DNA of 36,871 nt from Gammaproteobacteria bacterium (GTDB lineage Bacteria > Pseudomonadota > Gammaproteobacteria > JAABTG01), in NCBI GenBank assembly GCA_030066245.1, contig JASJBY010000001.1, positions 1 through 36,871 of the forward strand. The letters run 5' to 3'. Position numbers and translations under genes: made by a program. This document shows positions 3,988-36,506 of this stretch, piece after piece; position 1 is the first letter of the stretch; every line of letters begins with the position of its first letter. The notes below the pieces were generated by a model. That model was given only the letters and a program-made list of their open reading frames with translations, ran no database searches and was not told the DNA's origin.

Positions 3988-5310
3988 TCAACCTGTCCAT
4001 TGAATACGCTGCCACAAGGCCTTCAACCGATTTCCCCTGGACGGATTCAACCAGGCTACGTAGGCAACTCTGCCCGCCAAGTGAAACTTGAAGTCCACGA
4101 GCCCCCGGCGATTCTGACTGTCAGGGCCGAAGCGAACGCAGTTGTGGAGTACTGCCTTCAGGCGATCGTACTCACGGCGGCGTGGATTGGGCTTTTCATT
4201 CACTACGACACCGGCCAGGCACTGACATTGCCCCTGTGTATTGAGCCGAGTCTTGCGGTGATTCACACTGAAGCCTTCCTCCATTGCCACCGCTCCGACT
4301 AACCCCTGAAGGTAAGGTGCCAGGCCAACCAGTTTCGAGGAGCCGGAGAATGCCAGATCATCCGCGTATCGGGTGTAATCGAGACCGAAGTGCTCAGCCA
4401 CCCCATGCAAGCGGCAATCAAGACGCCAGGCACAGAGATTGGCGATGGCCGGCGAGGTAGGCGCCCCTTGGGGAAGATGCTTCTGTAGCAGGCGCTTCTT
4501 CCGTGCCCAGGACAGCTCCCGATAAGGTGCGCCCGCCAGTACAGGTGAGACGGCGTGGGTGCAGAGCCCCTGGAGTAATCGGGCCACGGTCGACGGATAG
4601 CCAAGGCGACGGAACAGGGCGCCGATGCGCGGCGTAGGCACGGAGTGAAAAAAGTCCTTGAGATCCATGCGCAGGATAGCGGCCTTACCGATGTGGGGAG
4701 CCGCATAGCTCAAACAGGAGTGACGGCGCCTGAAGCCATGCGCACACGGGTGAGGCGGTACAAGGTTCAACAGCTCGTGCAGCACCTGCCGCTGTATTAT
4801 TTTCAGGCGAGACTTGGGGATTTCAATCAGCCGCCGCATCCCCGACCGTTTGGTGATCCACCGATAGCGATAGTGGTGCAGCTTCGGTTCCACCATCCTG
4901 CTCTGCAACGCTTCGCGGTCGGCAAACCATGCCAGCTCGTTATCGAGCAGCCCCAGCCAGAGTCGTAGATCCTTCCAGGTGGCAAGCCGGGGCAGGGGAA
5001 GGGTGAACAGGCCGTCGGGCAACGGCCCCATGACCGGCGGCTCGAGCAAAATATTCTGCCTGAGGTCGTGCTGGGATTGGCTCCAGATCTGGTGAAGGTC
5101 GTCCTGGTCCCGGAGAAACGCCGTCAGTCGCGACATGGACGGGGGACGTCCCTCGTCGAAATGAAACACCAGCCGAGCTGCCAGGCGCCGGGGGTCGGGA
5201 GAACCACCGCCCAAAGCCCTCCGTATCCGGTCCGCCAGAGATTCCTTGTCCCAGCTCCCCGCGGTCAGGGAAAGCGCCAGCCGCCGGACCTCGGTCGTGT
5301 AACTGGACAA
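3988..5310 (-). CDS. Retron-like reverse transcriptase with about 140 aa N-terminal extension
   Basis: AHGFRRRHSCLSYAAPH, ILRMDLKDFFHSV, LPQGAPTSPAIANL, YTRYADDLAFS, GFSVNHRKTRL, CLAGVVVNEKPNPRR; TTG start follows an in-frame TGA. Confidence 0.9.
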   Translation of the reverse strand: MSSYTTEVRRLALSLTAGSWDKESLADRIRRALGGGSPDPRRLAARLVFHFDEGRPPSMSRLTAFLRDQDDLHQIWSQSQHDLRQNILLEPPVMGPLPDGLFTLPLPRLATWKDLRLWLGLLDNELAWFADREALQSRMVEPKLHHYRYRWITKRSGMRRLIEIPKSRLKIIQRQVLHELLNLVPPHPCAHGFRRRHSCLSYAAPHIGKAAILRMDLKDFFHSVPTPRIGALFRRLGYPSTVARLLQGLCTHAVSPVLAGAPYRELSWARKKRLLQKHLPQGAPTSPAIANLCAWRLDCRLHGVAEHFGLDYTRYADDLAFSGSSKLVGLAPYLQGLVGAVAMEEGFSVNHRKTRLNTQGQCQCLAGVVVNEKPNPRRREYDRLKAVLHNCVRFGPDSQNRRGLVDFKFHLAGRVAYVAWLNPSRGNRLKALWQRIQWTG

Positions 5311-16281: not shown

Positions 16282-16298
16282 TGTCGGTATTCTTTACA
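16282..16298 (+). promoter_or_regulatory. TGTCGGTATTCTTTACA element between clpB and the ATPase gene
   Basis: Matches the two sites at 20362 and 20415 at 15 or more of 17 positions. Confidence 0.5.
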
Positions 16299-16476
16299 AT
16301 TTGTCTTCAACTTTGTCCGCTATTGCGCGTAAGCCTATGTTTCATATATATATGCATGATTCTTGCTATTTCAACAGATTGACTGCCGCTCGCGCTCGGG
16401 CGGCGTGCCTGCTCCTGGCGGACGAAGGATGTGTCGGTAACGCAGGAATACTGGCTTTTTCTGACCGCACTGCCCT

Positions 16477-18744
16477 ATGTCAGCAAACAGCTTCGGCTGC
16501 CGAGAACACCCGTTCGGACCCGGCTATGACAGCCGGTTCTTCTACGTCCGCCCTGGTCAAGAGGCGAGCTTCCAGGAACTGTTCGCCAGAATTTCCGCGC
16601 CCGACGGGTTGGTTCTGATCACCGGCCAGGCCGGCTCCGGCAAGACCACGCTGCTTCGCGAGCTGAGAACGCAGCTGGATGCGGCGGAGGCGCTTACGGT
16701 GTTCTTCCCGAGTCCGGCCGCCACGGCGGACACCCTTCTCGACGCGTGCCTGCAGCGGCTCGGACTGCACGACGCACTCGGCGCTGGGCGCGCCGCCAAA
16801 CTGGAGGCGCTCGCAGATCCGTCACGCCATCCCGAATCCTCTCGACCGGTGGCGATACTCGCAGACGAAGGACATGCGCTCACCGATGACGTCTTGAACA
16901 CGTTCCTGGCGCTGTCGGCGCCGGTGGCAGAGAGGCGCGCCCCTCTGGCCGTGGTGGTCGGCGGCGAGCCCGTGCTGGAGGCCCGGCTGTCCGAGGAGAT
17001 CTTCCAGCCGCTCGCCGGCTGCATCGGGTACCGGTACCAGTTGGCTGCCCTGGACCGAGACGAAACCGCTGCCTTCATCGAGCTCCGCCTGCGTGCAGCC
17101 GGCTGTACCCAAGCAAGCCCATTCTCCACGGAGGCGGTCGAGCGTATAGCTTTCTACGCGGACGGATTGCCGGCCCGCATCAACCAGCTTGCCGACATTG
17201 CTCTGTTCATTGCCACGCTGGAGTCGACGCCGCAGATCACGGCCGAGCTTGTGGAGCGCGCCGCCCAGGACGCTCTGCTCTCCGATGAGCCCATCAACCT
17301 TGGCCGCACCGCGGCCGACAAGCAGGGCGGCGCCCCGCAAGGGCCTGACGACGACGAGCCTGGCGTCCCTCTGCTGACGGACGTTGTAGGCTCGTCCGGT
17401 CGGATCGGCGCCCTGCCTGGCGCCGAGGCCCAGCTCGCGGCGGCGCTTCTTCCTGAAGTTGGCCGTACCCAACAGGACCCTACGCAAACGCTCGCATCAG
17501 CCTGGCCGGGGCAGGACTCGCCGCTTCTGGATCACGACGAGACAGAGGATCTCACTCTGGACGATCCCGACCCCAGGCCCACGACAGCGCCGACAACCGC
17601 GGACCTGGGGCCCCTGAGTGCGTTGCGTCAGAGCCCCGCCGGGTCAGCGAATAGGATGAAGCCAGCGCCCCGCGAGCGCCCGCACAGGTCACTGGGAACA
17701 CGGCGGCTGGTGGTTGCACTGACGCTAGTGGGGAGCGTCGTGCTGGCCGGTTGGCTCTTGTCTAGCCACCAGCATCGCCTGCACCAGTTGGAGCCCCTGC
17801 TCGCCACGCTGGACAGGGCTGCCGAGCTCTCGAGTGACCGCCTCCAGGAGCTGTTGCGCACGCTCCGTGCGCACGCGTCCACCATGCTTGCGCCAATTAC
17901 CAGCCCCGCGCCAGAAGAGGCGCCGCAGAAGCCACTCCCGCCAGCAGCGGCGACACAGGCGCATAGGGCGCCGACCGGGCGCCCCACAGCACTGAACGTC
18001 GCTCCCGGCTCGCCGGCGACCGCCTCGATTGACGAGAGGGCAGCCGCTGGGCTGGACGTGCCTCCGGAAACCCTTCGCACAGCGACGCCCAACGCTGAGA
18101 CACCGGATGACCCGCCGGCCCCGGGCTCGACAAGCTATCGCCTGCTCACGGCCGCAAAGGTGCGGGAGCGGCCGTCGGTAAGCGCCCGTTTGCGCCTTAT
18201 GCTCCAGAAAGGCAGCGACGTGGTGGTCACCGGACACGTACCCGGTAGCAACTGGTACCGGATTCGAACCCCCCGTGGCGTCGAAGGCTATATGTACGGC
18301 GGCCTCGCGCCGGGGCCGCGCACTGGCCTGGCAGGGGGGACAGGGCCCGCGCCTCCGGCTTTGGGACTCCTGCAGATCGACGAAGCAGAAGCGGCGGCGG
18401 CGGAGATCACGGAGCTGCTGGCGCGAGCCGACGAGCACGTCCGCGCGGACCGCCTGATGGCGCCGCGGTTCGACAACGCGTTGGCCCTATATCGCAAGGT
18501 GCTGCGCGCGGAACCCCATGACCCAGAAGCCCTCGCCGGCATCGAGAAAATCAAGGATAAGCTGATGGGCTTCGCCCGAGCGGCGGTCGCCCAGGGAGAC
18601 CTGGAGGGCGCGCGCAGCCAAGTCAACAAGGTCCTCGTCATTGACGCCGAGGACAGAGCAGCGCGTGCCGCCCTGGCCAATTTCGGCGAAGCGGTTCCCT
18701 TTGCAGACTTTGCGGGTCTCGAGGATCCCGGACCCACACAATAA
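16477..18744 (+). CDS. ExeA-like AAA ATPase with TM segment, bacterial SH3 domain and C-terminal TPR-like helices
   Basis: GCREHPFGPGYDSRFFY, GQAGSGKTTLLREL, ILADEGHAL; TM LVVALTLVGSVVLAGWLL; SH3 AKVRERPSVSARLRLMLQKGSDVVVTG...NWYRIRT. Confidence 0.85.
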   Translation: MSANSFGCREHPFGPGYDSRFFYVRPGQEASFQELFARISAPDGLVLITGQAGSGKTTLLRELRTQLDAAEALTVFFPSPAATADTLLDACLQRLGLHDALGAGRAAKLEALADPSRHPESSRPVAILADEGHALTDDVLNTFLALSAPVAERRAPLAVVVGGEPVLEARLSEEIFQPLAGCIGYRYQLAALDRDETAAFIELRLRAAGCTQASPFSTEAVERIAFYADGLPARINQLADIALFIATLESTPQITAELVERAAQDALLSDEPINLGRTAADKQGGAPQGPDDDEPGVPLLTDVVGSSGRIGALPGAEAQLAAALLPEVGRTQQDPTQTLASAWPGQDSPLLDHDETEDLTLDDPDPRPTTAPTTADLGPLSALRQSPAGSANRMKPAPRERPHRSLGTRRLVVALTLVGSVVLAGWLLSSHQHRLHQLEPLLATLDRAAELSSDRLQELLRTLRAHASTMLAPITSPAPEEAPQKPLPPAAATQAHRAPTGRPTALNVAPGSPATASIDERAAAGLDVPPETLRTATPNAETPDDPPAPGSTSYRLLTAAKVRERPSVSARLRLMLQKGSDVVVTGHVPGSNWYRIRTPRGVEGYMYGGLAPGPRTGLAGGTGPAPPALGLLQIDEAEAAAAEITELLARADEHVRADRLMAPRFDNALALYRKVLRAEPHDPEALAGIEKIKDKLMGFARAAVAQGDLEGARSQVNKVLVIDAEDRAARAALANFGEAVPFADFAGLEDPGPTQ

Positions 18745-19529: not shown

Positions 19530-20261
19530 ATGAAAAGACACACTATTGCGATCGCCCTGTGCGGTATGCTGCTGACACGGCTGGTGCTGGCTGGCACGGG
19601 AAACCCCGCACCGAACCCTCACCACTCCCTGCATCCGCGCACCGTCCCGGAGCGGCTTGTCCAGGTCGACATGGCCGCAGACAGCGAGCAACAGGAATAC
19701 CTGGAGTCGCTGAACCAAGAGGCAGCCCGATCAGATCCGACTTCCTCGCAGCCAGCTGCGAAGATGTCAGATAGCGCTCCGGCAACCCCAACCCCGGAAC
19801 CGGCGACCGGACCAGGTCGATTCAATGCCATAAGAAGCATCGTCTCGGAGGCCCTGGCCAAACCCGAACCCGAGAAGGTGGATGACCCACCAGCGAAGCC
19901 TCCGGCGCCGGCCGCCACCCAGCGTCGCGAGGAGCTAAAGAGCGTGGTGATCAGCGCGCCTCCGCCTAGGGACGCGCCGGGCGACAATTACATCTCTGTA
20001 CTCAAGGAGGAGGTGTCGACAACGGTAGTGGTCAAGCCCGGCGATGAAGCCTCGGCCATGGGGCTTAAGGCGTCCACCGCACGGACCCAGACCGCGACCT
20101 ATGCCTACACGGTGCGCTTCGGAGACTCACTCTGGACCATAGCGGAGCGCGTCTATGGCAACGGCTACCGCTGGGCGGCCATCTACGAAGCCAACCGGCA
20201 AGACATTCCCGACGCCAACGTTCTCCAGGTCGGTCAGCAGCTGAGGCTGCCCAGGGAGTAG
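19530..20261 (+). CDS. Secreted LysM-domain protein
   Basis: Signal peptide, Pro/Ala-rich linker, C-terminal YTVRFGDSLWTIAERVYGNGYRWAAIYEANRQDI...LQVGQQLRLP. Confidence 0.87.
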   Translation: MKRHTIAIALCGMLLTRLVLAGTGNPAPNPHHSLHPRTVPERLVQVDMAADSEQQEYLESLNQEAARSDPTSSQPAAKMSDSAPATPTPEPATGPGRFNAIRSIVSEALAKPEPEKVDDPPAKPPAPAATQRREELKSVVISAPPPRDAPGDNYISVLKEEVSTTVVVKPGDEASAMGLKASTARTQTATYAYTVRFGDSLWTIAERVYGNGYRWAAIYEANRQDIPDANVLQVGQQLRLPRE

Positions 20262-20361
20262 TGCTGTTTGGTTATCCGGGGTGACCGGCTGCGGCCCAGC
20301 TGCAGCCGTCGCCCACACGAACACGAAATCGCCAGAAACGGAGGCTAGCCGCCGGTCGCAG

Positions 20362-20378
20362 TGTCGGAATTCCTTACA
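20362..20378 (+). promoter_or_regulatory. Putative activator site 1, TGTCGGAATTCCTTACA
   Basis: Read directly; 53 bp upstream of site 2. Confidence 0.65.
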
Positions 20379-20414
20379 CATTGGCGCCGACTGGATGGCG
20401 CAGCGCGGCGAATG

Positions 20415-20431
20415 TGTCGGAATTCTTTACA
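20415..20431 (+). promoter_or_regulatory. Putative activator site 2, TGTCGGAATTCTTTACA
   Basis: 16/17 identical to site 1. Confidence 0.65.
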
Positions 20432-20469
20432 GTGAATGGGTCACAAAACCGTGAATAAGGCCTCCCGAG

Positions 20470-20486
20470 TGTAGGCCAGCTTTACA
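20470..20486 (+). promoter_or_regulatory. Putative degenerate activator site 3, TGTAGGCCAGCTTTACA
   Basis: 12/17 identical to site 2; 55 bp downstream of it. Confidence 0.45.
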
Positions 20487-20538
20487 CCGGGACCCAGCCG
20501 GGCTTCCTAAGCCGTTGAACAGAAACAACAAGGTGCGT

Positions 20539-20556
20539 TTGGCACGGAAACCGCAT
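20539..20556 (+). promoter_or_regulatory. Sigma-54 (RpoN) promoter, TTGGCACGGAAACCGCAT
   Basis: TTGGCACG -24 element; GG (20541-20542) and GC (20553-20554) separated by exactly 10 nt. Confidence 0.65.
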
Positions 20557-20612
20557 CGCCGACGGTGAAAGCACACCGTGGGAACCAATGAGGCACCTTG
20601 TGGGAGGCGCCC

Positions 20613-20801
20613 ATGTCGAATAACAGAACGAGATCGGCAGATCGGCATCGACGCCTGCCCGAATCGCCGGCGGGGCCAAGGACGCAACGCCGCGATCCCC
20701 AACGCAGACCATTCCAGCCCGACAGCCCTGGAGCTCAGCCGGAGGAGGAACTGGTGGTCGCATACACATGGCCCGAGGCGGGCGGCTGGCGCGTTTACTG
20801 A
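20613..20801 (+). CDS. Small uncharacterised basic protein (62 aa)
   Basis: GGGAGG RBS, ATG at 20613, first ORF downstream of the sigma-54 promoter; no recognised domain. Confidence 0.45.
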   Translation: MSNNRTRSADRHRRLPESPAGPRTQRRDPQRRPFQPDSPGAQPEEELVVAYTWPEAGGWRVY

Positions 20802-20872
20802 TATTCCGCCAGCCGCTAGTTTCACTGGCCCAGTCTACCCGTAGCGGGTTCAGGTGACCGCCAGGGCAAGGC

Positions 20873-21103
20873 ATGCAGACAGATGAACCCAGCACCATGG
20901 AAAACAAGCGCTGTACGAACAACAGATCCCCCGGAACCGGTCATGTATTTGCTGTGCCCGATTCCAACGACTGGTATCTCACCACCGACGACAGCATCGT
21001 CCTGGGGCCTTACGAAAGTTGTCAGGAAGCAGTCAGGCTCCTGGGCCTGCTGCGCGAGCGAAGGAAGCCTGCTCCGCCGGGCAAGGGCTTGCGGACAGCA
21101 TGA
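20873..21103 (+). CDS. Small uncharacterised protein (76 aa or 68 aa)
   Basis: DWYLTTDDSIVLGPYESCQEAVRLLGLL looks like a genuine folded segment; start uncertain (20873 or 20897). Confidence 0.5.
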   Translation: MQTDEPSTMENKRCTNNRSPGTGHVFAVPDSNDWYLTTDDSIVLGPYESCQEAVRLLGLLRERRKPAPPGKGLRTA

Positions 21104-21200
21104 TCGGCCAGCGTTCCGGCCTTCGCGCCGGGCTTGAAAACGGGCAGCGGCAGGCGTTTGTGCGCGGCACGGCGACCGCAGTGGGCATTGAGGTCTAGCT

Positions 21201-21524
21201 GTGGCCCATCTGCTGCGCAACGCACGGGATCGGCGAAGCCACCCTCGGATCAACGCTGCGTACGAGGCCAGGCTCCGCCTGACCCAGCAGGTGCCTGTGC
21301 GTGGCGAACTGGTCGATTTGAGTCGCTCTGGCGCGTTCATCCGTCTGTTTCCAGTAGGCGTCCCCGAGAGCCGGGTAATAGAACTGGTGCTGATCACGCC
21401 GCGAAGCAATCGGGTGGTCCGCATCTGGCGGCGCGCCGCCGTCGTCGTGCGTCGTTCACCGTCGGGGGTCGGTGTCGCCTTCCTCCGTCCTTCCTGGCGC
21501 CGCAGACAGCTCGCAAAGCCCTAG
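21201..21524 (+). CDS. PilZ domain protein
   Basis: RRSHPRI and DLSRSGAFI, the two c-di-GMP binding motifs of PilZ; GTG start. Confidence 0.8.
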   Translation: MAHLLRNARDRRSHPRINAAYEARLRLTQQVPVRGELVDLSRSGAFIRLFPVGVPESRVIELVLITPRSNRVVRIWRRAAVVVRRSPSGVGVAFLRPSWRRRQLAKP

Positions 21525-21636
21525 AGAGCGCTGCGCGATGGCCGGCGACCCATCGGCTCGACTCCACCCGTCCCGCCAGTTGCTCCGCTCCTCGACGTTT
21601 TCATACGCCTGCGTTGCCCGGTCGGACAGGTTCACG

Positions 21637-21766
21637 CTAGCGCGCATTTCTCACGGGGATTCGGACAACCGGCAAACGAGACAGTGGACAAGAAAGATGC
21701 CAAGGCTTTGAACATCGAAACATTTACGTGGAAACCGGGTCCGCCTGGTGAGAAAATGCGCGCTAG
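21637..21766. repeat. Long imperfect inverted repeat (18/19 nt arms, 93 bp core)
   Basis: CTAGCGCGCATTTCTCAC (21637-21654) versus GTGAGAAAATGCGCGCTAG (21748-21766), complementary with one extra A. Confidence 0.75.
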
Positions 21767-21784
21767 GGGTGAGGAGGGCGTAAG

Positions 21785-22429
21785 GTGCTAACGTGGCTGG
21801 CCCGCTGGATAGAGAAACACCGCCGCGTTCACCGTTGGTCGCTGCGGGTATGGCGCTTATTCCCGCCTCGTTTAGCGGGGTTTCTCAAGGGACAGTTCGC
21901 GCGCAGCTGGGTGGTGGGCGCCGTAGCGGTCATGGTGGACGCGGACGCGACGCCGCCCGAAGTGCTGCTGGTTCGGCACAGCTACCGTCGACGGGGCTCC
22001 TGGGGCCTCCCCGGGGGCTCCCTGGAGTCTATCCCCGGTAATGCCACCGCCGCGGGAAGTGGACCGTCGCCAGATGACGTTGTAGAGGCCACACTGCGAC
22101 GGGAGGTGTGGGAAGAGCTCGGGCTCAGCATCGCCGCAATCGAGTTCCTGCGTATCGACGCGGTGCCCTACGTGGCGGAGGAACCGGGACCTGATCGGCT
22201 GGATTTCTACTTTCTGTGCAGGCCCGAAGGTGGATTCGCAAAACTACGGGAGGATATCGCCAGCCGCAGCTTCAGACCCAGGTCACCGGAAATAGACGAC
22301 GCACGTCTGGTGCCCCTTTCGGCACTTGATGACCTGGATCTGTTCTCGCCAGATGCCCGTTTCTTGCAGAGCGATCTGCCAAGATTGAGACCGATGCTGT
22401 TTGAACGGCGCTTGAACAGTCACGCTTAG
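21785..22429 (+). CDS. Nudix hydrolase
   Basis: WGLPGGSLES...REVWEELGL Nudix box, with an insertion. Confidence 0.85.
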   Translation: MLTWLARWIEKHRRVHRWSLRVWRLFPPRLAGFLKGQFARSWVVGAVAVMVDADATPPEVLLVRHSYRRRGSWGLPGGSLESIPGNATAAGSGPSPDDVVEATLRREVWEELGLSIAAIEFLRIDAVPYVAEEPGPDRLDFYFLCRPEGGFAKLREDIASRSFRPRSPEIDDARLVPLSALDDLDLFSPDARFLQSDLPRLRPMLFERRLNSHA

Positions 22430-24672: not shown

Positions 24673-26070
24673 TCAGAGGGGGCGGACCCAATCGATCGCC
24701 GCCAGCACCTCCTCGGCGCTCTGGAAGCGTTCGTCCGGATCTTTCGCCAGCAAGCCCTCGATGAATGGCTGAAAGGCGGCCAGGTCTTGCTCCAGTTTGG
24801 GGATGGGCGCATGCAGATGCGCATCAATGAGCATTGCCACGTTATCGCCTTGGAAGGGCTTCTGGCCCGTCAGCATTTCGTATAGCACCACGCCGAGGCT
24901 GTAGAGATCGCTGCGCTGGTCAATCTGACCGTCTCTGACCTGCTCCGGGCTCAGGTAGTAAGGAGTTCCCAGAATCACGTCATCCCGGGTAAAACTGCGC
25001 TCTTCGTCCAGGGTCTTAGCAATGCCGAAATCGGTGATCGCCAGGGTGTCGTCTCCCCGAAACAGGATGTTGCCCGGCTTCAGGTCACGATGCACCACGT
25101 CTTGCAGGTGCGCGGCCATCAATCCTTCACAGATCTGGCGCAGATAGTACAGACTGCTCTCGGCCGACACGCCCCGGGCGATGCGCTGTTTCAGATCTCC
25201 GCCCGGAAAATGCTCCATGGCGATGTAGGCGTACTCTTTCGCGAATGCACGCTCGTGGATACGCACAACGTTCTTGTGCTGTATCTCCTCGATCAGTTCG
25301 TATTCCTGCATGAACCGCCTGAGCAGGTTCGGGTCGCGCTTGCAGGCGGCGGTGAAAACGACCTTCAACACCACGGTAAGCTGGTCTTCCATGCGCTCTG
25401 CGAGGAACACCGTGGCCGAGCCGCCCTCGCCGACTCGCGATATGATCCGGTATCCGGGCACGCGCAGACGACTGCCTTCGGTACCGGACTGGGTGCCCGG
25501 GTCTTCGCGCAGCGCCACCCCGCTGGCTTTCAGCGCCCGACGCAGGTGCGCGCGCGTCATACCGGTTTGCTCTCGGCTGTCCGTGCCGGAATGGTCGACC
25601 GTTGGCGGCGGTGGGGAATGGCGCTGCATGGCCTGCAGCATCTCCTGGATGGCTCCGTTCAAGGTCTTGGAGGACAGACTGTCCTTGCGCATGTAGCCGG
25701 CGGCGCCCAGCTTCATGGCGCGCACGGCTAGCGCCTCGTCACCTTCGTCAGTCAAGACCAGCGCGGGGGGTAGGTCCGGCTGCTCCCTGAGTTCCTCCAG
25801 CCACTGCAGACCGTCTTCGCCCTCCAGGCCAAGCCGATAGTCGATGATGAGCAGGTCGTACTCGCTCCAGTGGAAATGGGCACCCGGCTTTCCTTTGCTC
25901 GCCGGACGGTGCCAGTGCACTTCCACCTTTGGCCATTCCTGGCGAAGGAAATAGCCCGCGAGTCGCCCGAACTCCTCAGAATCGTCAATGACCAGAACGC
26001 GCCTTAGCATGCCATGGCTGGAAGCGTGGCCAGGCGACCTGTGTGTCCCCCCTGAGACCTGGGTAGTCAT
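24673..26070 (-). CDS. Response-regulator receiver fused to a Ser/Thr protein kinase
   Basis: REC (VLVIDDS, LLIIDYRLG, MRKDSLS) then kinase (VGEGGSATVF, VVHRDLKPGNILF, ITDFGIAK, GTPYYLSPEQ). Alternative start about 26010. Confidence 0.93.
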   Translation of the reverse strand: MTTQVSGGTHRSPGHASSHGMLRRVLVIDDSEEFGRLAGYFLRQEWPKVEVHWHRPASKGKPGAHFHWSEYDLLIIDYRLGLEGEDGLQWLEELREQPDLPPALVLTDEGDEALAVRAMKLGAAGYMRKDSLSSKTLNGAIQEMLQAMQRHSPPPPTVDHSGTDSREQTGMTRAHLRRALKASGVALREDPGTQSGTEGSRLRVPGYRIISRVGEGGSATVFLAERMEDQLTVVLKVVFTAACKRDPNLLRRFMQEYELIEEIQHKNVVRIHERAFAKEYAYIAMEHFPGGDLKQRIARGVSAESSLYYLRQICEGLMAAHLQDVVHRDLKPGNILFRGDDTLAITDFGIAKTLDEERSFTRDDVILGTPYYLSPEQVRDGQIDQRSDLYSLGVVLYEMLTGQKPFQGDNVAMLIDAHLHAPIPKLEQDLAAFQPFIEGLLAKDPDERFQSAEEVLAAIDWVRPL

Positions 26071-26106
26071 ATTGCGACCTTGCGTCTACCTGCCCGGTTT
26101 GTCGTC

Positions 26107-26625
26107 TTAGAGTGAGGGAATGTCCGCTTTCGCCTCCATAGGAAGAGCTTCGGCGAAACTCGACGCTGTCCCGCGCCGCGACAAGCCGCCCGAGAAGACA
26201 TGCGCCAGATTCACTATCGGCAACGCCCTGGACTGGTGTCCGACGCAAGAGAGCGCTATCTCCCGCCATTCGGCCATGTCCGGGGGCAGCTCGCATGCCT
26301 GCTCGTCGGAAACGACGATCCGGCGCGGAATGGCGCTGAGCCGCAGCGCCCCGTACCGGTTCTCACCGGCCCGAGTGTCGAAGAAAGCGGCGACCGCCAC
26401 CACTGTCGGCTCGTCGCGGCTCGGCCGGCCCTCCAGCCAAGCCGAGAGTGCCATCACCGGCACAGGCTCCTGTTCCCAGATGACCACATGCCTGCAGAAA
26501 AAGGGGCTGGCCGGCACCTCGTGCAGCGACAACGGTGCGGGGAGCAGATGCAACAGCTGCCGCTCGCCGATGACGCCCGTCTGTCCCGAGCCGAATTCGA
26601 GCAGCCACGCGCCCTGCCCGCTCAC
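26107..26625 (-). CDS. CheW-like protein (divergent)
   Basis: Position in the chemosensory operon and CheW-like pattern (HVVIWEQEPVPVMALSAWL; ALPIVNLAHVF). Confidence 0.65.
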   Translation of the reverse strand: MSGQGAWLLEFGSGQTGVIGERQLLHLLPAPLSLHEVPASPFFCRHVVIWEQEPVPVMALSAWLEGRPSRDEPTVVAVAAFFDTRAGENRYGALRLSAIPRRIVVSDEQACELPPDMAEWREIALSCVGHQSRALPIVNLAHVFSGGLSRRGTASSFAEALPMEAKADIPSL

Positions 26626-27137
26626 GGGTGAACCTCACTGCCGGGCCGGGATTCCGGCGGCGACGGCGGGCTGAGACCCACCTGCGAAGACAGCGAGCCG
26701 AGTAGAGCAGCACTCGAGGTCAAGCAACCGAGAAAGCCCTCCTGCTGCACCAAGCCCCGCACCGGTGAGCCGGGCGTGCTGAGCACAGGCGGCAGTGACA
26801 GGCTCCGACAGGATTCCGCCTCCAGCGTCGTCACCGCCTCACACAGAACACCGGCGTAGCCGGCCTCGTGATGGAGCAGCACACAGACACGGCGCTCCGC
26901 CGGCACCAGAGTCGTCATGCCAAGGTTCTGGTCAAGGCAAACCACGGGCCAGCGCCGGCCGTCGGCCTGTATCCAGCCGGCGACGCCGTCTGCTTCTCCG
27001 CCTGGCTGCACGTCCGAGGAAGGCTCCAGCGTGTAAACGTCGGTATCCGGCAACACCAGGGGCATGCCCGCAAAGGTCAGCACGACATAGCGGCCTTGGA
27101 TCGATTTGACCGGCCGGATCGCGGACGAGGCGCTCAT
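26622..27137 (-). CDS. CheW-like protein (divergent)
   Basis: YVVLTFAGMPLVLPDTDVYTLEP...WPVVCLDQNLG; ATGA-type overlaps with both neighbours. Confidence 0.68.
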   Translation of the reverse strand: MSASSAIRPVKSIQGRYVVLTFAGMPLVLPDTDVYTLEPSSDVQPGGEADGVAGWIQADGRRWPVVCLDQNLGMTTLVPAERRVCVLLHHEAGYAGVLCEAVTTLEAESCRSLSLPPVLSTPGSPVRGLVQQEGFLGCLTSSAALLGSLSSQVGLSPPSPPESRPGSEVHP

Positions 27138-30100
27138 CGTGCGCCTCCCAGGTCGGCCAGGTGCTTGAGAAGCTCATCCTCGGAGAACGGCTTGGTGAGG
27201 TAGACATCTACGCCGGCCGCCTCGGCCTCCCTGCGGTGCTTGCCGGTGGAACGGGAGGTGACCATGATGACCGGCAGGGAGGCCGTGGTCTCCCTGGCCC
27301 TTACGTGGCGGGTCAGCTCGAGCCCGTTCATGCGCGGCATTTCCAGGTCGACCAGCAAGACGTCCGGTCGCTGCTCCTCGATGATGGGTACCGCTTCCAG
27401 ACCATCCCGCGCCGTGAGCACCCGAAAGCCGGTGTCCTCCGCGAACTGGGCCAGCGAGCGCCGCGCGCTGAGCGAGTCGTCCACTACCAGCACGGACCGC
27501 GCCTGGGCGGGCTGCGGTGTTTCCGTGTCAGACGGGAGTGCCCGCTCGTCGACAAGCTGGCTGCGCAGCAGCTCCGGCACGTCCAGCACCGGCGTTACAC
27601 TACCGTCGCCAAGAATGGTTGCGCCGATCATGCCCTTCAGCTTCGGCACATACTGCCCCATGCTCTTCACCACGAGATCCCGCGTGTCCAGGACTTTCTC
27701 GACGAGCACCGCGCTGGGCCCATCGTCGCCGCGGATAATGAGCACGGCGCCGGCATCGTTGTCCTCTTCGATGGAGCCGGAATATGTGCCCAGCAATGAC
27801 GTCAGCCGGCGCACGGGAAAGACATCTTCGCCCACCTGATACATGAGCTCCGTACCCACGTCACGCAGCTCCCCGTCTCCGGCGTGCAGAATGTGTTGCA
27901 CACCGCGGGCAGAGACCCCGACCACAAACTCGCCGAGTTGGACCAACAGCGCATGGGTCGAGATGAGCGTGACCGGAAGCCGTAAGGCAATGCGCAGACC
28001 CTGGCCGCCGGCGGACTCCATGTCCATGGACCCACTGAGCTCCAGCACGCGTGTGTAGACCGCGTCCATGCCAATGCCACGACCGGAGGTCTGGGTGGCG
28101 TGCTCGCGCGTGGAGAAGTTCGGGCGCAGCACATAGCGTTGCAGCTCCGATTCCGGTACCAACTGCTCGGACGTGAGCATGCCCCGCTCTTCAGCCACGT
28201 GCCGTATGGCCTCCAGGTCCAGGCCCGCCCCATCGTCCCAGCAGATAACCACTACGTAGTTGCCGTCGCGCACAAACTCCAGAGTGATGCGCCCGGATTC
28301 ATGCTTGCCCAGTCGGCGCCGTTCTTCCGGCACCTCGATGCCGTGGTCGACGGCATTGCGGAGCAAGTGCATCAACGGGTCCACCAGCTGGTTCAGCACG
28401 TCGCTGTCGACGAGCGTCTCCGCGCCCTGCACTTCCAGCTGGGCTTGTTTACCGGTAAGACGGCAGGTCTGTCGAACGGCGCGCTGCAGCCGAGACACAA
28501 TGGTCTGGGCGGACACCATACGGGTGTCCAGGACCGCGCCCTGGCTGTCGCGATTCAACCGCTCCTGGTTGACCAGCATGGCGTCGAGCGCTGCCAGGTG
28601 CTCCTGCAGCATCTGCCCTGCCTCCCTGGCGTCGGTGGTGGCCTCCATGAGGCGCCGACTGTAGGTATGCAGCTCGTTGTAACGGTCAAACTCCAGGGGG
28701 TCGAACACGTCCCCTGATGGCGACTGCTCCTTGAGTGCGGAAATGTCTCGCAGGTCGATAAACTGCTCCAGCTCCTGACCGAGTTGCTGGGTGAGGGCCA
28801 GGCGGTCACGCATGGCCCCGGCCTGAACGAGCGCAAGATTCACGCGCTCGTGCACCTGACCGGTCAGGATGATGGTCTCACCGGAGAGCCGCAGCATACT
28901 GTCCACCAGGGGCGCCGGGACGCGCAGGGTAGCCGTGGTCGGGCGGGGTGCGGGAGCGGGGGGCTGGGGAGCGGACGCAGCGTCCGTCTCATTGCCGGCC
29001 AGCGCCGTCGCGGGTTCGCCGCGCTGAGCCGCGCCGATGCCCTCCCGCGCGATGCGATTGCGCCAGTCGATAACCTCCTGAACCACGTCAAGGGCATCGG
29101 CCGGGGGCTCTCCCACGCCCGTCAACGCTTCGCTCATGGTCTCCAGACAATCGGCGGCCTTCACCAGCGACTCGGCCAGGGTCGTGCTGGGCAGAACCGC
29201 ATGCTTGGCGAGGGAAAGCAGCACATCCTCGAGACGGTGGGTCAGGGTCGCGACGCCCCGGATGCCGACCGTATTGGCGGCACCTTTTACCGTGTGCGCC
29301 ACACGCTGGGCGGTCTGCAGATCCTCGACGGTGGCAACTCCCTGGCCCATGCGCTGGATGACGGCGGAGAATGCCTCCGTCTGTCCAGGCAGCTCCTGAA
29401 GAAGGCTCTCCAGCACCTGGGGATCGACCCGCTGGGAGATCTCCAGGGAAACATCCTCCGCCGTGACCACGACCTCCGGCGGCTCCTCTTCTTCCTCCGC
29501 GCCGGGGGGCACCCGGTCCAGAAGGCCCACAAGCTCGGACCGTTCGACCGCGGCCAGCGGTCGCGGCCAGCGGGCGTCCTCCAGGTGGCTGAGCAACTCC
29601 TCGGAACTCTGCCTCGTGCCCAGAGCTTTCAGATAACCTCCGACCCGGTCACCCCAGGCCACCAGCAGCTGCGTTTCCTCGAGCTCGGCAACCGATGCGT
29701 TCTCCGAGAGCGGGCCAAGGTTCTCCTGCAGGTGCGCGCATACGCGCTGCAGCCCGCGAAACCCGGCCGCGTCCGCCGCATCGCCGAAGCGCTGCACATG
29801 GTCGGCGTAGCCCCGCATAGCCTCACGGCGGTCCGACTGGGCCGCCCTGTCAGAAGCCGCCACGGCCAGCGCGTCGTCCAGGGTCTTGCCCATGGGCGCC
29901 AGCTCGGCGAGCAACAGGTCCCGCAGCTCCGTCTGGGTCTCGGTCAGCTCCGCAAACGCCTCCAGCGCCTGGCCTGTCGTGAGCGGCGAGGGCACTGGGT
30001 CTGCGATGTTCAGCTCTCGCGAGGCGGGCAAGGCTTCGGACAGGGGAACGGTCGCCTCGAGCCCCGCGGAGTCAGCGCTTCCTGGCTCGCCCGTGGCGCC

Positions 30101-31096
30101 CTCGTCAGTCGCGAACACCGTTAGGCCGCTTCCCGCCAGGGGATCCGCGTCGTCCGCTCCGGACGGCTCCATGGCCAGCAGGCTGCGCAGCATCTCGGCG
30201 TCAACCTCCGCGAGTGGCGCAGGCCAGCGCGCGTCGCTGAGATGCTGCAGCAGGGCTTCAATCGCCCGGCCATCGCCGGGTGTCTGCAGGTAAACCCTCA
30301 CCAGGCGCGGCCACGCCGCCAGCAGCTCGCGCTCGGCGGCAGAGGATACCTCGCTCAAGCCGCTGAGACGCTCCTCATGGAGCAGACAGGCGTCCTGCAG
30401 GCCGTGCAGCTCAGAAGCTTCCGCGGCGGCCGCCAGCCGGCCCAGCTGGGCCGTGTAGCTCGCCAGCAGCTCCTCACCCTCGGAGCCGGCGGACACCGCC
30501 TCGAGCTGATCGAGAACACCCAGGAGCTCCGCCGATGCCGGGCCGGGCGCGTCCAGGCTCGACGCCGACAGGGACCCCGTGGCCTCCCGCGAACCGTCCG
30601 CCGGTGCCACAGGCGCCAGCGCCTCCGGCTCTTCTCCCTCGATGACCGTAAGCCCACTGCCAGCCAGGGGGTCGTCCTCTTCGGAGTCCGAGCCCACCGC
30701 AGCCAGGAGGCTGCGCAGCATGTCGGCATCCGCCGCGGCCAGCGGCGAAGGCCAGCGGTCATCCGCCAGGTGCCTGACCAGCGCCTCCCCCTGATGGGGA
30801 TCGTCCGGCAGCTGCAGGTAATCCCTCACCAACCCGGGCCAGGCGATGAGCCACTCGCGTTCGGCTTCCGTCGAAACTGTGCCCACACCGCCGACCCGTT
30901 CCTGCATGAGCAGGCAGGCATCCTGCAAACCATGAAGCTCGGCGGTCTCGGCCGCCGTCGCCAGCTCCCCGAGCTGCTCCGCATAGCCGGTCGACAGCGC
31001 TTCGCCCTGCTCTGAGCTGAGCAAACTCTCCAGCTGAGCAACCGCAGCTAACACACCCTCCTGATGTAGCCGTGTATTGGGGTTCAGATTATGCAT
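27134..31096 (-). CDS. Hybrid CheA/ChpA-like histidine kinase with receiver domain
   Basis: Hpt VAHTVKGAANTVG; HLLRNAVDHGIE, DDGAGL, GRGIGMDAV; CheW-like domain; C-terminal REC VLVVDDSLSARRSL...LLVDLEMPRMNG...TKPFSE. Confidence 0.95.
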   Translation of the reverse strand: MHNLNPNTRLHQEGVLAAVAQLESLLSSEQGEALSTGYAEQLGELATAAETAELHGLQDACLLMQERVGGVGTVSTEAEREWLIAWPGLVRDYLQLPDDPHQGEALVRHLADDRWPSPLAAADADMLRSLLAAVGSDSEEDDPLAGSGLTVIEGEEPEALAPVAPADGSREATGSLSASSLDAPGPASAELLGVLDQLEAVSAGSEGEELLASYTAQLGRLAAAAEASELHGLQDACLLHEERLSGLSEVSSAAERELLAAWPRLVRVYLQTPGDGRAIEALLQHLSDARWPAPLAEVDAEMLRSLLAMEPSGADDADPLAGSGLTVFATDEGATGEPGSADSAGLEATVPLSEALPASRELNIADPVPSPLTTGQALEAFAELTETQTELRDLLLAELAPMGKTLDDALAVAASDRAAQSDRREAMRGYADHVQRFGDAADAAGFRGLQRVCAHLQENLGPLSENASVAELEETQLLVAWGDRVGGYLKALGTRQSSEELLSHLEDARWPRPLAAVERSELVGLLDRVPPGAEEEEEPPEVVVTAEDVSLEISQRVDPQVLESLLQELPGQTEAFSAVIQRMGQGVATVEDLQTAQRVAHTVKGAANTVGIRGVATLTHRLEDVLLSLAKHAVLPSTTLAESLVKAADCLETMSEALTGVGEPPADALDVVQEVIDWRNRIAREGIGAAQRGEPATALAGNETDAASAPQPPAPAPRPTTATLRVPAPLVDSMLRLSGETIILTGQVHERVNLALVQAGAMRDRLALTQQLGQELEQFIDLRDISALKEQSPSGDVFDPLEFDRYNELHTYSRRLMEATTDAREAGQMLQEHLAALDAMLVNQERLNRDSQGAVLDTRMVSAQTIVSRLQRAVRQTCRLTGKQAQLEVQGAETLVDSDVLNQLVDPLMHLLRNAVDHGIEVPEERRRLGKHESGRITLEFVRDGNYVVVICWDDGAGLDLEAIRHVAEERGMLTSEQLVPESELQRYVLRPNFSTREHATQTSGRGIGMDAVYTRVLELSGSMDMESAGGQGLRIALRLPVTLISTHALLVQLGEFVVGVSARGVQHILHAGDGELRDVGTELMYQVGEDVFPVRRLTSLLGTYSGSIEEDNDAGAVLIIRGDDGPSAVLVEKVLDTRDLVVKSMGQYVPKLKGMIGATILGDGSVTPVLDVPELLRSQLVDERALPSDTETPQPAQARSVLVVDDSLSARRSLAQFAEDTGFRVLTARDGLEAVPIIEEQRPDVLLVDLEMPRMNGLELTRHVRARETTASLPVIMVTSRSTGKHRREAEAAGVDVYLTKPFSEDELLKHLADLGGAR

Positions 31097-32951
31097 TGGC
31101 CATTGCTATGTCGTTCCCGCCGGGCACGTCAATGACCTGGTCTAGCACGGGCGCATGTTCGAAAGTCTGCGTGTCCGATTCGGCTTCGGGCAGCTTGAAC
31201 ACTTTCACCGATTCGATCAGGCGCTGCGCCGCATCCACCAGCTGCAGCGTGTACTGCGTCTGCTCTGTAAGCTGCGCGGCCGTGTCACGGGAGCTCTGCT
31301 GAATGGAGCCGGCATGCTTGCGAAGCTCGGTGCTGCCCTGCGCCTGGGCCTTCGAGGTGGCGGCGATGGTTCGGACCATCTCCACGAGCTCGGCAGTGGT
31401 CTTCCGGGTCGCCTGCATCTGCTCGCCGGCCTCCTCCGCCAGGCCACTGCCCTCGACGACCTGCCGAATGGCCTCGTTCATGGTGTTGACCGTATCGGCC
31501 GTCTCCGTCTGGATGTTGCTGACCAGCGTGGCGATCTGGGCGGTCGCCTCGCGGGCATTCTCCGCGAGGCGCTGCACCTCGTCGGCGACGACAGCGAAGC
31601 CACGGCCGGCTTCACCGGCTGAGGCTGCGTGCATGCTGGCGTTCAGAGCGAGGATGTGGGTACGCTCAGCGATGCTGTTGATGAGGTTGACCACGCCGCT
31701 GATCTCCTGCGAGCGTTCACCGAGGCGTTTGATGCGTTTCTCTGTCTCGCGAATGGTATCGCGCGTGCTGCTGATACCGACCACCGTGTTCGCCACCGTC
31801 TCGTGTGCCTTGCCGGTCGTCTTGATGGCCTTATCAGCGACGGCGTAGCAGGCCTGGGCCAGCTTGGCAATTCGCATCATGGCGTCGGAAGCGCTCGCGA
31901 GTTTGTCGGCCGTCTTGTCGATCTCGGCCTGCTCGTTGGCCGCCACCTTGATGACGTTCTCAGACTGAGACCGCACGCGGTTCGAGGCCTCCGACACGTT
32001 GTGGGAGATCTGCCGGACACCCTGCAGAACCCTGGAGGTCTCGTCGGTGAGCACGTTGAGAGCGTCGGCTACCGGGCCGGTGATGTCCTCGGTCACCGGC
32101 ACCTTCACGGTCAGGTCCCTTTGGCTGAGCTGCGCCACGGCCTCCAGAAGCCTGATCACCGATTCGTTGATACGGTCGCCATCTTCCTGCGCCGTTACCA
32201 GACTCGCCACCTTGTCTTCCAGCAGCCCGTCGAACGCCTGGGCGAGCTCGCTGAGCTCGTCCCGCCCGGAAATGCCGGTGCGCGCATAGTGGTCACCTGC
32301 CACCACCTGGCGCACGGTAAAACCGATTCTGGCAACGGGTGCCGCGATGGAGCGGTAGATGACGAAGCTGAGCCCGGCGGTCAGGAGCGTGCCGACCACG
32401 AACATGGCAATCGCCACCAGGAACATGAGCTGCTCTTCGTTCACAGACTCCTGGAACGCAGCTTCGGACTGGGCATGTTGCCGGCTCACCCTTTCCGCAA
32501 GGACGTTGACGAAAGGCGCGATGTTCGGCTCCAGATCGTTGAGGACGTAGAGCGAAAGATGCGCCCGGTTCTCCGACGCCAGGATATCGCCCAGATCCTT
32601 GAACACCTGACGAAAACCGATCACGCCTTTCTGCAGCGCCGGGTCCTGTCCGCCGAGCGCGGACCAGGCCCTGTTGAACTCAGTGTTTGCGCGGGCCAGA
32701 TCCTGTCGGGCCTGCTTCCAGGTGATGGTGCCGCGGTTGATGCCGTTGATCGTCCCGAGCATGTCCGAGCGAATAGCCGCGGTGACATGGCTCAGCTTGA
32801 CCTGATCCTGAACGTGCTGGTTCAGGGTGACGATCGTGTTGGTGGCGTAGCCTCGGAAAAGCAGCGCCGCCAGACCCATGGCCAGAAGCACCGCCGCCTG
32901 CACACCGATGAGCAGCAGCAGACGGTGACCGATGCGCAGTTTGCTCAACAT
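31089..32951 (-). CDS. Methyl-accepting chemotaxis protein, PilJ-like
   Basis: Two TMs, HAMP, and hairpin tip RTHILALNASMHAASAGEAGRGFAVVADEVQRLAE. Confidence 0.93.
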   Translation of the reverse strand: MLSKLRIGHRLLLLIGVQAAVLLAMGLAALLFRGYATNTIVTLNQHVQDQVKLSHVTAAIRSDMLGTINGINRGTITWKQARQDLARANTEFNRAWSALGGQDPALQKGVIGFRQVFKDLGDILASENRAHLSLYVLNDLEPNIAPFVNVLAERVSRQHAQSEAAFQESVNEEQLMFLVAIAMFVVGTLLTAGLSFVIYRSIAAPVARIGFTVRQVVAGDHYARTGISGRDELSELAQAFDGLLEDKVASLVTAQEDGDRINESVIRLLEAVAQLSQRDLTVKVPVTEDITGPVADALNVLTDETSRVLQGVRQISHNVSEASNRVRSQSENVIKVAANEQAEIDKTADKLASASDAMMRIAKLAQACYAVADKAIKTTGKAHETVANTVVGISSTRDTIRETEKRIKRLGERSQEISGVVNLINSIAERTHILALNASMHAASAGEAGRGFAVVADEVQRLAENAREATAQIATLVSNIQTETADTVNTMNEAIRQVVEGSGLAEEAGEQMQATRKTTAELVEMVRTIAATSKAQAQGSTELRKHAGSIQQSSRDTAAQLTEQTQYTLQLVDAAQRLIESVKVFKLPEAESDTQTFEHAPVLDQVIDVPGGNDIAMANA

Positions 32952-33017
32952 CGCTTTATCCTCACTCTGGTTAATCCCTGTTCCGTCGCAATCGGGCGGA
33001 ACCTGCTCCGCGGTTTG

Positions 33018-34295
33018 TCACCGCTGCACCATGCCGCGCCAGTCCGTACGCGTCATGGTCTTGTACTCGGCACCCGCCAGATACGTCACCGCGACCAGGT
33101 CCGACCCCTGGTTGTCCTCCGTGAAGTCCAGCTTGACGCCACCCACATTGAAGCGCTGACCACGAACGGCGCGCAGGAAGTTCTTACGCGTCACTTCCCC
33201 CTGAACCCGACTCATGATGGCAAGGAACATCTTGCCGACGATGTATCCCTCCAGAGACACATAGCCGTAGTCATCACCCAGCGCTGCTCTGGCCTCCTGC
33301 ACTATGGGCAGATCCGAGTCCAGGGGCGGGACGACCTGGGTCATCACCACCTTGTCGGTCACACCGAACTCTCTCAGGGTAACTCTGTAATTGTCCGCGC
33401 CGGTGAAAGACACGGCGCTGACGATCCAGTCGTCCCCTTTGAGCCTTGCATACGCAGCAAAGCGCGCAATGGCATTGTAAGTGCCGACCGAGACCACCAG
33501 ACGACAGTGATTACCGGTCCTGCTCTCCCAGGCCTTCAGAGAGTTGTAGCCGTCGCGGGACGTGAAAGTGTTGCGAACATAGACGCCGACCGGTCCCAGG
33601 TTGTTACGCTTTGGAAGAGCCCCTTTCCGGCCCATGATGTCGTCCAGGGTCGACACGATCTGCTCCACCCCGCGACGACCCGCAAGGGCACGCTTGATAC
33701 CCTCCACACCCGCCATGCCATAGGCGTCGTTCTGAACGTAAGCGCATATCTCCGTCGGTTTGATGCCGGCGTTTATCGCCTGGCGGATGACCGCTGCAGT
33801 CTCCTGCACGTAGCTCGCCCGATAGTTGATAATGTCGCCCACTCCAGGCCGAAGAATGCCGGCCCCGGTGAAGAACCCGACCGCCGGCACGCCCTGCTCG
33901 GCAAGGATCGGCAGCGTTACCTTCGCAGTCGGTGTGCCCACGTTGCCCACCACGGCGAAGACACCCTGGCTGAGCAGTTGCTCGGTAGCTTTCTTCGACT
34001 TTTCCGGCGTATAGGAGTCGTTCAATGTGACGAACTCGATGCGCCGCCCGCGGACTCTCTGGCCGCGGACCGCCGCTTCGATGCCGGTCTTCATTCCCAG
34101 GCCGAGACCGCGGGAGACGCCTTCCAGATCCATGACGCCGCCTATGCGTATGGTCGACGGGGTAACGCCCGGCTCCGCCTCAGCCGGCGCGACCAGGAGA
34201 ACACATACCAGCAAGCTCAGCCCAATCGCCGAGGATAAGCGGCGCGCGCCTCGCCCGCCGCGGCACCCTTCTTTGCAACTACCGATTCCTTTCAT
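33018..34295 (-). CDS. Branched-chain amino acid-type (LivJ-like) periplasmic substrate-binding protein
   Basis: Signal peptide; TIRIGGVMDLEG, GIEAAVRGQRVRGRRIEFVTLNDSYTPEKS, AVVGNVGTPT. ATG at 34295 is preferred over the ORF-track start. Confidence 0.85.
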   Translation of the reverse strand: MKGIGSCKEGCRGGRGARRLSSAIGLSLLVCVLLVAPAEAEPGVTPSTIRIGGVMDLEGVSRGLGLGMKTGIEAAVRGQRVRGRRIEFVTLNDSYTPEKSKKATEQLLSQGVFAVVGNVGTPTAKVTLPILAEQGVPAVGFFTGAGILRPGVGDIINYRASYVQETAAVIRQAINAGIKPTEICAYVQNDAYGMAGVEGIKRALAGRRGVEQIVSTLDDIMGRKGALPKRNNLGPVGVYVRNTFTSRDGYNSLKAWESRTGNHCRLVVSVGTYNAIARFAAYARLKGDDWIVSAVSFTGADNYRVTLREFGVTDKVVMTQVVPPLDSDLPIVQEARAALGDDYGYVSLEGYIVGKMFLAIMSRVQGEVTRKNFLRAVRGQRFNVGGVKLDFTEDNQGSDLVAVTYLAGAEYKTMTRTDWRGMVQR

Positions 34296-34375
34296 CCGTT
34301 CATGCCTCTTGCTAGTCACCCAGTTGCGAAAACAAATTCGTCCAATCGAAAGCGCCCCGCTCTGGCCACGAAGAA

Positions 34376-34939
34376 TCACCCGCTCGCGGCGCCGCTTGCC
34401 ATCAGCTGGCCGATGGCAGCAAAAAGTTCCCGGTGCCTTATCTCAAGCCACACCGCGTCGTCAACGAAATACGCTGCCGCCAAATGTTCTTCGAGAGTGC
34501 CCGGCAAGCTCGGCGTGCGGGCCATGGGCTCGGCGAGCTTCAGCGGTCGCGGAAATCCGTCCACGAGTATCCCGGCGGCGTTCTCTTCCTTGTCCAGAAC
34601 CAACAGCTTGCGCTGCGGCGCACTGTCGTCGCCAGGCATCAACAGGCGTTTCAGGTCAAAAACGGGAATCAGGTTTCCACGCAGATTGACGAGACCGGGG
34701 AACCAAGGTGGCGTGTTGGGAACAGGGTATACCGACAGGTCGCCCATGAGTTCGCTCGCCGTCTTTGCCGGAACGAGCATGCCGAGGTTGCCGACGCGGA
34801 AGCCATAGCGCACCGCGTCGTCCTCTGCAGGCGCCGCCTCCCGGGCTGGCGCCTCCACCGGGTCACAATAACCAAGCGCCTCGGTCGGGCCGAGCCAGGG
34901 ACCTTGCGCAGTCCTTTCGGTCGTCTGGTCGGTGTTCAC
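34376..34939 (-). CDS. CheW/PilI-like protein
   Basis: RYGFRVGNLGMLVP...VYPVPNTPPWFPGLVNLRGNLIPVFDLKRLL. Confidence 0.88.
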   Translation of the reverse strand: MNTDQTTERTAQGPWLGPTEALGYCDPVEAPAREAAPAEDDAVRYGFRVGNLGMLVPAKTASELMGDLSVYPVPNTPPWFPGLVNLRGNLIPVFDLKRLLMPGDDSAPQRKLLVLDKEENAAGILVDGFPRPLKLAEPMARTPSLPGTLEEHLAAAYFVDDAVWLEIRHRELFAAIGQLMASGAASG

Positions 34940-34999
34940 CTTACCGCATTCCGATAGCGATATCCGCGCCGCCAGTGCCCTGCGGCCGCGAGCCGGCGC

Positions 35000-35365
35000 C
35001 TAGCTCAGCGCCTCCAGCTGCTCGATGATTTGATCCTTGGTGTACGGCTTCGAGAGCAGTGCCTTGGCGCCCTGCATCTGCGCCCATACCCGGTCCGCTT
35101 TCTGATTCTTGCTGGTTACGAAGACGATCGGGATGTCTTTGGTGGTGTCGTCCTTGCGCAGGCGTCGACAGGCCTCGAAGCCGTCCATCTCCGGCATGAT
35201 GACGTCCATGAAGATCACGTCCGGCTTCTCCGCTTTGGCGCGCGCCACCGATTCAGCGCCGTCGCTGGCCGTCAATACCAGGCAGCCGGTGCCGGAAAGG
35301 ATGCTCTTAAGATTCTCCCGGTCAACGGGCGAGTCGTCTACGATGAGCACTTTGCGGTTAGTCAT
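35000..35365 (-). CDS. PilH-like single-domain response regulator
   Basis: KVLIVDDSPVDRENL, VIFMDVIMPEMDGFEACR, LLSKPYTKD. Confidence 0.92.
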   Translation of the reverse strand: MTNRKVLIVDDSPVDRENLKSILSGTGCLVLTASDGAESVARAKAEKPDVIFMDVIMPEMDGFEACRRLRKDDTTKDIPIVFVTSKNQKADRVWAQMQGAKALLSKPYTKDQIIEQLEALS

Positions 35366-35387
35366 AGTCCCTTCTCCTCAATTCAAC

Positions 35388-36242
35388 TCAAGCACCGCTC
35401 GCCAGCTGGGGCAGAGACCCCGCAGGCAAGTTGAAATAGCGTTCGACGACTCCCAGGAAGACTTCGTGCCGGACCGGTTTTATGAGGTAGGTGTCGCACC
35501 CGGCGAGCCGGCCTTTGATCCGGTCCGCAGGCGAAGAATTGCTGGTCAACATGATGACCGGTGTACTTTTGCGGCTCGGATCAGACTTGATGACTTTGCA
35601 GATCTCATAACCGTCCGCGCCGGGAAGGATGACGTCCAGGAAGACGATGTCGTAAGCGTTGTCCCGAATTAGCTCGAAGGCTTCGTCTCCCGTCTCTGCA
35701 AAATCCACGTGGGAGGCGAAAGGTTTCAGGGCCAGGTCCATTTGCACCCGCACGGGAAGACTGTCGTCGACCACCAGCGCGTTGAAGCTGGACTGTTCCC
35801 CCGCCGCGGACCGCGCCGGCGCCGCGCTCGCCTGCCCGGCGCCTGAGGTGAGGTTGTCCCGGGGGTCGATGGCCAGAACAGCTGAGAAACCGAGTGCCTC
35901 GGTTGCCACCAATTCAAGGGCCACCAGCAGGCGTGTCGCGATCATCGGTTTGCGAGCGGAAAAGCAGCCCTCCGGGGCACTTTCTTTGCGTGCTACGACG
36001 AGGGTCGGCGCAGCGGTCGTAGCGCCGGCCGATTCGGCGAATGCCCGCCAGTCGGCCACGGCACGGTCATCGTCACCGTCCACCATGAGAATGTCTGCCG
36101 CCTGCTGGCGGTCGGGCGCAGCGACCGAGAAAGAAGGGTTGCGGGTCATTGACAGGCTGAAGACGCGCGCGAGCGCACGGCGCTCGGCGTCGGAGAAACC
36201 GAACTGGGCAACCGAGAAAACAGCATGGCTTCCTTGCGTCAT
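35388..36242 (-). CDS. Response regulator with divergent N-terminal domain and C-terminal PilG-like receiver
   Basis: C-terminal ALVVDDSLPVRVQM, IVFLDVILPGADGYEICK, YLIKPVRHE. Start uncertain (36242 or 36254). Confidence 0.83.
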   Translation of the reverse strand: MTQGSHAVFSVAQFGFSDAERRALARVFSLSMTRNPSFSVAAPDRQQAADILMVDGDDDRAVADWRAFAESAGATTAAPTLVVARKESAPEGCFSARKPMIATRLLVALELVATEALGFSAVLAIDPRDNLTSGAGQASAAPARSAAGEQSSFNALVVDDSLPVRVQMDLALKPFASHVDFAETGDEAFELIRDNAYDIVFLDVILPGADGYEICKVIKSDPSRKSTPVIMLTSNSSPADRIKGRLAGCDTYLIKPVRHEVFLGVVERYFNLPAGSLPQLASGA

Positions 36243-36506
36243 TTCACAAGCCATCCATTGAGCGGTGACGGTCTTAGGCGGGCTAGGTGCGGTGATGAGA
36301 CCTGGAAGCAAGACCGGACATTGCAACCTCCAGTAACAACCCGACCGAAGCCGAATGCCGTCTGGCGCGTGGTCGCAAATCCTAGTCTCATCTTCCCCAC
36401 CGGACCTGCCTGCGGACTTCTAAGGGCGTCACCCCACGGTACGCATTGCATAGTCATCCTCTTGAGACTAAAGCGGCTGACAAGAAAGGAACTTTAGACT
36501 GCCAAC

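Follow-up and report, generated by a model that had tools for sequence, protein, structure and literature searches.

Organisation of the promoter region

The window (the whole stretch of DNA analysed, 36,871 nucleotides) includes an intergenic segment, between the end of a LysM gene at 20261 and a small open reading frame (sORF1) that starts in the same direction at 20613, with three copies of a 17-nucleotide box and a -24/-12 element. The features of this segment and of the genes that follow it are:

20362–20378, + strand: PEP-CTERM box copy 1 (TGTCGGAATTCCTTACA), exact 17-mer match; predicted PrsR enhancer site
20415–20431, + strand: PEP-CTERM box copy 2 (TGTCGGAATTCTTTACA), exact 17-mer match
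20470–20486, + strand: PEP-CTERM box copy 3, proximal (TGTAGGCCAGCTTTACA), one mismatch to the 17-mer
20540–20555, + strand: sigma-54 -24/-12 promoter TGGCACG-N6-GCA, with GG at 20541–20542 and GC at 20553–20554
20613–20801, + strand: sORF1, 62 aa, no family; putative coding, ATG preceded by GGGAGG
20873–21103, + strand: sORF2, 76 aa, weakly DUF6316-like (PF19837, 14.1 bits, below the cut-off of 28.5)
21201–21524, + strand: PilZ-domain protein, 107 aa (PF07238, 35.4 bits; cut-off 22.5)

An earlier note on this DNA had described three activator-like sites starting at 20362, 20415 and 20470, spaced 53 and 55 bp from start to start, and an element at 20539 with GG-N10-GC geometry. The positions of the sites were confirmed to the base, and TTGGCACGGAAACCGCAT at 20539–20556 has the geometry described. 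Box copies 1, 2 and 3 end 161, 108 and 53 bp, respectively, before the -24 element. The layout is thus shorter than the 100–200 bp of the classic enhancer arrangement that the note had invoked.

The box motif with up to two mismatches was found seven times in the window, as compared with 1.0 ± 1.0 expected, and none of 100 shuffles reached seven. TGGCACG-N6-GC occurs once in the window, on both strands counted, 53 bp past the third box, which is the modal distance in the genome. By itself, a loose -24/-12 pattern is not significant (146 matches in the window, 162 expected), and GG-N10-GC alone occurs 719 times; hence, the weight rests on the combination of box and promoter. A scan of 20250–21800 for sigma-70 promoters and terminators gave nothing above shuffles. 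In an Rfam search of the window, the sole match was a tRNA at 2559–2631, and no riboswitch was found in the leader.

Elsewhere in the window, an ORF at 3988–5310 (- strand) resembles reverse transcriptases of the retron St85 and Ec67 types (175.8 bits, below the curated cut-off of 235); it lies near the tRNA and is possibly a defence element. A Pil-Chp-like chemosensory cluster at 24673–36326 (- strand) encodes a CheA-hybrid, a methyl-accepting protein, CheW and response regulators, and a response-regulator/Ser-Thr-kinase fusion at 24673–26070 adjoins it.

Genes downstream of the promoter

The three downstream genes are separated by 71 and 97 bp, and none of their products has a PEP-CTERM domain, the usual but not universal target of box promoters. 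The earlier note had spoken of small unknown ORFs; small ORFs are indeed present, but the group is better described as two small proteins followed by a PilZ protein. The GGGAGG before the ATG of sORF1 looks like a good ribosome-binding site. No homologue of sORF1 was found, and its codon-position GC is flat. sORF2 has one paralogue in the genome (G000:C107, 52% identity over 46 aa), for which no box was found. In the PilZ protein, the c-di-GMP receptor motifs read from the translation are intact: RxxxR is RSHPR, and DxSxxG (consensus (D/N)xSxxG) is DLSRSG. Its best paralogue in the genome (G000:C16, 42%) also has a box and a promoter, the latter 64 bp downstream of the box; a third PilZ paralogue (G000:C8) has no box with fewer than three mismatches. 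The operon was not found in relatives from the same family, where sORF2 had no match and the PilZ protein weak matches only.

It is quite improbable that the promoter is real but makes a small RNA or leader transcript and not a protein operon. Such a product would fit the missing homologue and weak coding statistics of sORF1, as well as the small size of the genes and the gaps between them, whereas the ribosome-binding site of sORF1, the protein-level paralogue of sORF2, the PilZ gene further along the same strand, no terminator having been found before it, and the lack of an Rfam family in the region all argue for translated genes. As judged by these predicted products, the three-box promoter seems to drive a gene for a probable c-di-GMP sensor of the PilZ type, not the usual surface-protein genes.

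Distribution of the box in the genome

The genome (label G000) comprises 3.87 Mb in 353 contigs, and the assembly is 85% complete. A genome-wide motif scan, as suggested in the earlier note, was carried out by pattern searches for TGTCGG-N5-YTTACA, with the reversed pattern as a control. It revealed 14 exact sites and none for the control, and the box pattern at 20362–20486 is therefore not due to chance. The inventory of three sites in the note was correct for those sites and missed a perfect fourth copy, which marks a second promoter within the window:

16282–16298, + strand: fourth PEP-CTERM box (TGTCGGTATTCTTTACA), perfect match
16352–16367, + strand: -24/-12-like element ATGCATGATTCTTGCT (TG-N10-GC), 53 bp past the 16282 box
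16477–18744, + strand: 755-aa AAA ATPase with SH3 and TPR regions, predicted target of the 16282 box

The ATPase scored 101.3 bits against TIGR03015, below the equivalog cut-off of 324.5; on its sequence, it is related to the ATPase of the XrtA/PEP-CTERM system.

Only about two of some 11 box promoters in the genome head PEP-CTERM genes (loci L149 and L150), whereas most of those in family relatives do. Besides the ATPase, a gene for a DUF5658 protein is headed by a box, and a lytic transglycosylase gene is preceded by a box with one mismatch; in the genome G002, a box is likewise followed by a transglycosylase end of similar appearance. At unrelated genes, the central five bases of the site vary and the outer bases are constant.

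Several other loci were observed in the course of the scan. Two PEP-CTERM C-termini (G000:C77:4846 and C157:5281; L176 and L177) have no box within the stretch read, hence not every PEP-CTERM gene here belongs to the box regulon. Proteins of 66–67 aa with one likely membrane helix and no known family are encoded at L147:1898–2101 and L158:1834–2034, and both genes are preceded by a box that is exact or has one mismatch. At L154:3641–4747 (- strand), a box lies upstream of a transposase-looking gene (MSFLQHFAELPDPR...), which is perhaps an insertion beside a former box target.

Spacing between box and promoter

In the genome, ten pairs were found in which a sigma-54 element lies 52–54 or 63–65 bp downstream of a box, as compared with none in the upstream control. 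The two perfect boxes next to the 20540 promoter also see it, at 108 and 161 bp. In relatives, where 106 sites were used, the gaps are grouped like a comb, with teeth at 43, 51–52, 61–67, 73–76, 83–86 and 96–97 bp. The box-promoter gaps fit best to a period of 10.8 bp when this genome is taken alone and of 11.2 bp when all sites are pooled, a fit equalled by 0 of 5000 jittered controls, under a scoring scheme and threshold chosen by the analyst and with a few of the G001 and G003 sites being orthologous. The window gaps of 53, 108 and 161 bp all fall on the comb. The periodicity of ~11 bp suggests a requirement for the box to be on one side of the DNA helix.

Helical phasing is not reported by Haft et al. 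2006 (PMC1569441), in which the word 'helical' occurs solely in a reference title. With somewhat less than even confidence, we propose that PrsR activates in strict phase with the helix at gaps of 43–97 bp and that, in this lineage, the box regulon is no longer confined to surface proteins and has come to include genes for PilZ c-di-GMP receptors, for a lytic transglycosylase and for small proteins.

Co-occurrence of the box with PrsR

The earlier note had likened the motif to sites upstream of PEP-CTERM/exosortase genes linked to PrsK/PrsR. This comparison agrees with what Haft et al. 2006 (PMC1569441) describe as motif 1, as judged against the text description in that paper, not its logo. 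Motif 1 is a 17-nt sequence ending in TTTACA, sometimes repeated, that was predicted to be the PrsR site; it lies 62.8 ± 10.6 nt (range 32–92) before the sigma-54 motif 2 of PEP-CTERM genes, and a few motif 1 sites precede other genes (PMC1569441).

PrsR (TIGR02915) was scored above its cut-off in 13 of 55 other genomes. These 13 genomes have 107 boxes and 7 controls, as compared with 12 boxes and 12 controls, i.e. background, in the 42 genomes without PrsR (Mann-Whitney p = 7e-9). Thus, across the 55 genomes, boxes exceed background only where PrsR is encoded. The numbers of boxes tracking PrsR and the spacing following the helix give independent support for the PrsR box predicted in 2006.

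These data bear on the reading of the sites as a chance or repeat-derived pattern with no regulatory function. It could draw on -24/-12 elements alone being common by chance and on the degenerate middle of the motif. Against it stand the excess of boxes over the genome control, the fixed helical spacing to the promoter, and central bases that vary within constant outer ones at unrelated genes, unlike a repeat. Box counts correlate with PrsR as well; the spacing and phylogenetic data already contradict this reading, which is extremely unlikely.

A search for the genes named in the note found PEP-CTERM genes and RpoN (TIGR02395, 504.6 bits); PrsR, PrsK and EpsH/exosortase gave nothing above cut-off in the assembly, which is 85% complete. 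All four genomes of the same family encode PrsR and exosortase, PrsK being shown in one of them, G001. There, a cluster that includes genes for EpsB2, PrsK, PrsR, export, chain-length, kinase, ATPase, exosortase A and FemAB functions spans PrsK, PrsR and exosortase A within ~14 kb; hence, in a fragmented assembly, all three could have dropped out together through one gap. Other activators in the genome were considered as readers of the box, and none of the 13 examined carries a PrsR-type DNA-binding end (SRPTLYDL-type recognition region).

An unlikely alternative is that the boxes and promoter are functional but serve a different sigma-54 activator, in a lineage that has lost PrsK/PrsR and the exosortase. 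Such a loss would account for the three genes missing from the assembly and for the small share of box promoters that head PEP-CTERM genes here as compared with relatives. It is opposed by the four family genomes, by the compact G001 cluster, by the recognition regions of the 13 activators and by the drop of box counts to background where PrsR is not encoded. Given the relatives, the clustering in G001 and the lack of a PrsR-like end among those activators, gene loss is less likely than incompleteness of the assembly.

Proposed function

Very probably, the segment 20362–20556 belongs to the PEP-CTERM-box (PrsR) regulon and acts as a sigma-54 promoter that depends on enhancer sites. An activator of the PrsR type, when phosphorylated, would bind the three boxes, which face approximately the same side of the helix, and would then make a short helix-phased contact with sigma-54 RNA polymerase at TGGCACG-N6-GC. 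The sORF1-sORF2-PilZ operon would thereby be switched on as one transcript together with PEP-CTERM surface genes elsewhere, its PilZ protein would sense c-di-GMP, and the operon would belong to the exosortase/exopolysaccharide programme. Computation showed the sites with their spacing and their enrichment across the genome, the PilZ domain, and the joint occurrence of box and PrsR; we infer binding by PrsR, a single transcript and c-di-GMP sensing by the PilZ protein. The mismatch in the proximal box, sORF1 having no homologue, the operon not found in family relatives, and the absence of PrsR, PrsK and exosortase from the assembly count against the proposed PrsR model.

Through the two PilZ genes behind boxes, we propose, the exosortase/exopolysaccharide programme is connected with c-di-GMP signalling. 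If this is true, one sigma-54 activator would set both the surface matrix and the c-di-GMP response of the cell. The list of boxes provides testable targets beyond PEP-CTERM genes.

Comparison with known systems

The 20540 promoter shares with known PEP-CTERM-box/PrsR promoters the 17-nt motif ending in TTTACA, its repeated copies and a -24/-12 element within 32–92 nt; PEP-CTERM proteins in the genome and PrsR in its relatives are further common traits. It differs in that the target is a small-protein/PilZ operon instead of a PEP-CTERM gene and in that PrsR is not in the assembly. The copies, 53 and 55 bp apart, are also set tighter than the 76–201 bp found elsewhere at the loci examined. A direct study of PrsR binding to the box was not found in a literature search.

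The pepA promoter of Aquincola tertiaricarbonis RN12, which has been mapped (-24/-12 TGGCAC / CTGCTT) and is RpoN1-dependent, has a predicted enhancer sequence upstream, and the PEP-CTERM gene is needed for flocs (PMC9850573). The 20540 promoter is similar in its TGGCAC-type -24/-12 element with a predicted upstream enhancer; the RN12 promoter was tested experimentally and drives a PEP-CTERM gene, whereas the 20540 promoter is predicted from sequence.

Other NtrC-family layouts (NtrC, PilR, FleQ) likewise combine a -24/-12 promoter with enhancer sites that precede it; the present layout differs from them in a proximal site much nearer to the promoter. The recognition sequences of these activators presumably differ from the PEP-CTERM box. 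The promoter is thus a known kind of switch, and its new features are the atypical PilZ-operon target, the unusually close set of three boxes and the comb-like spacing.
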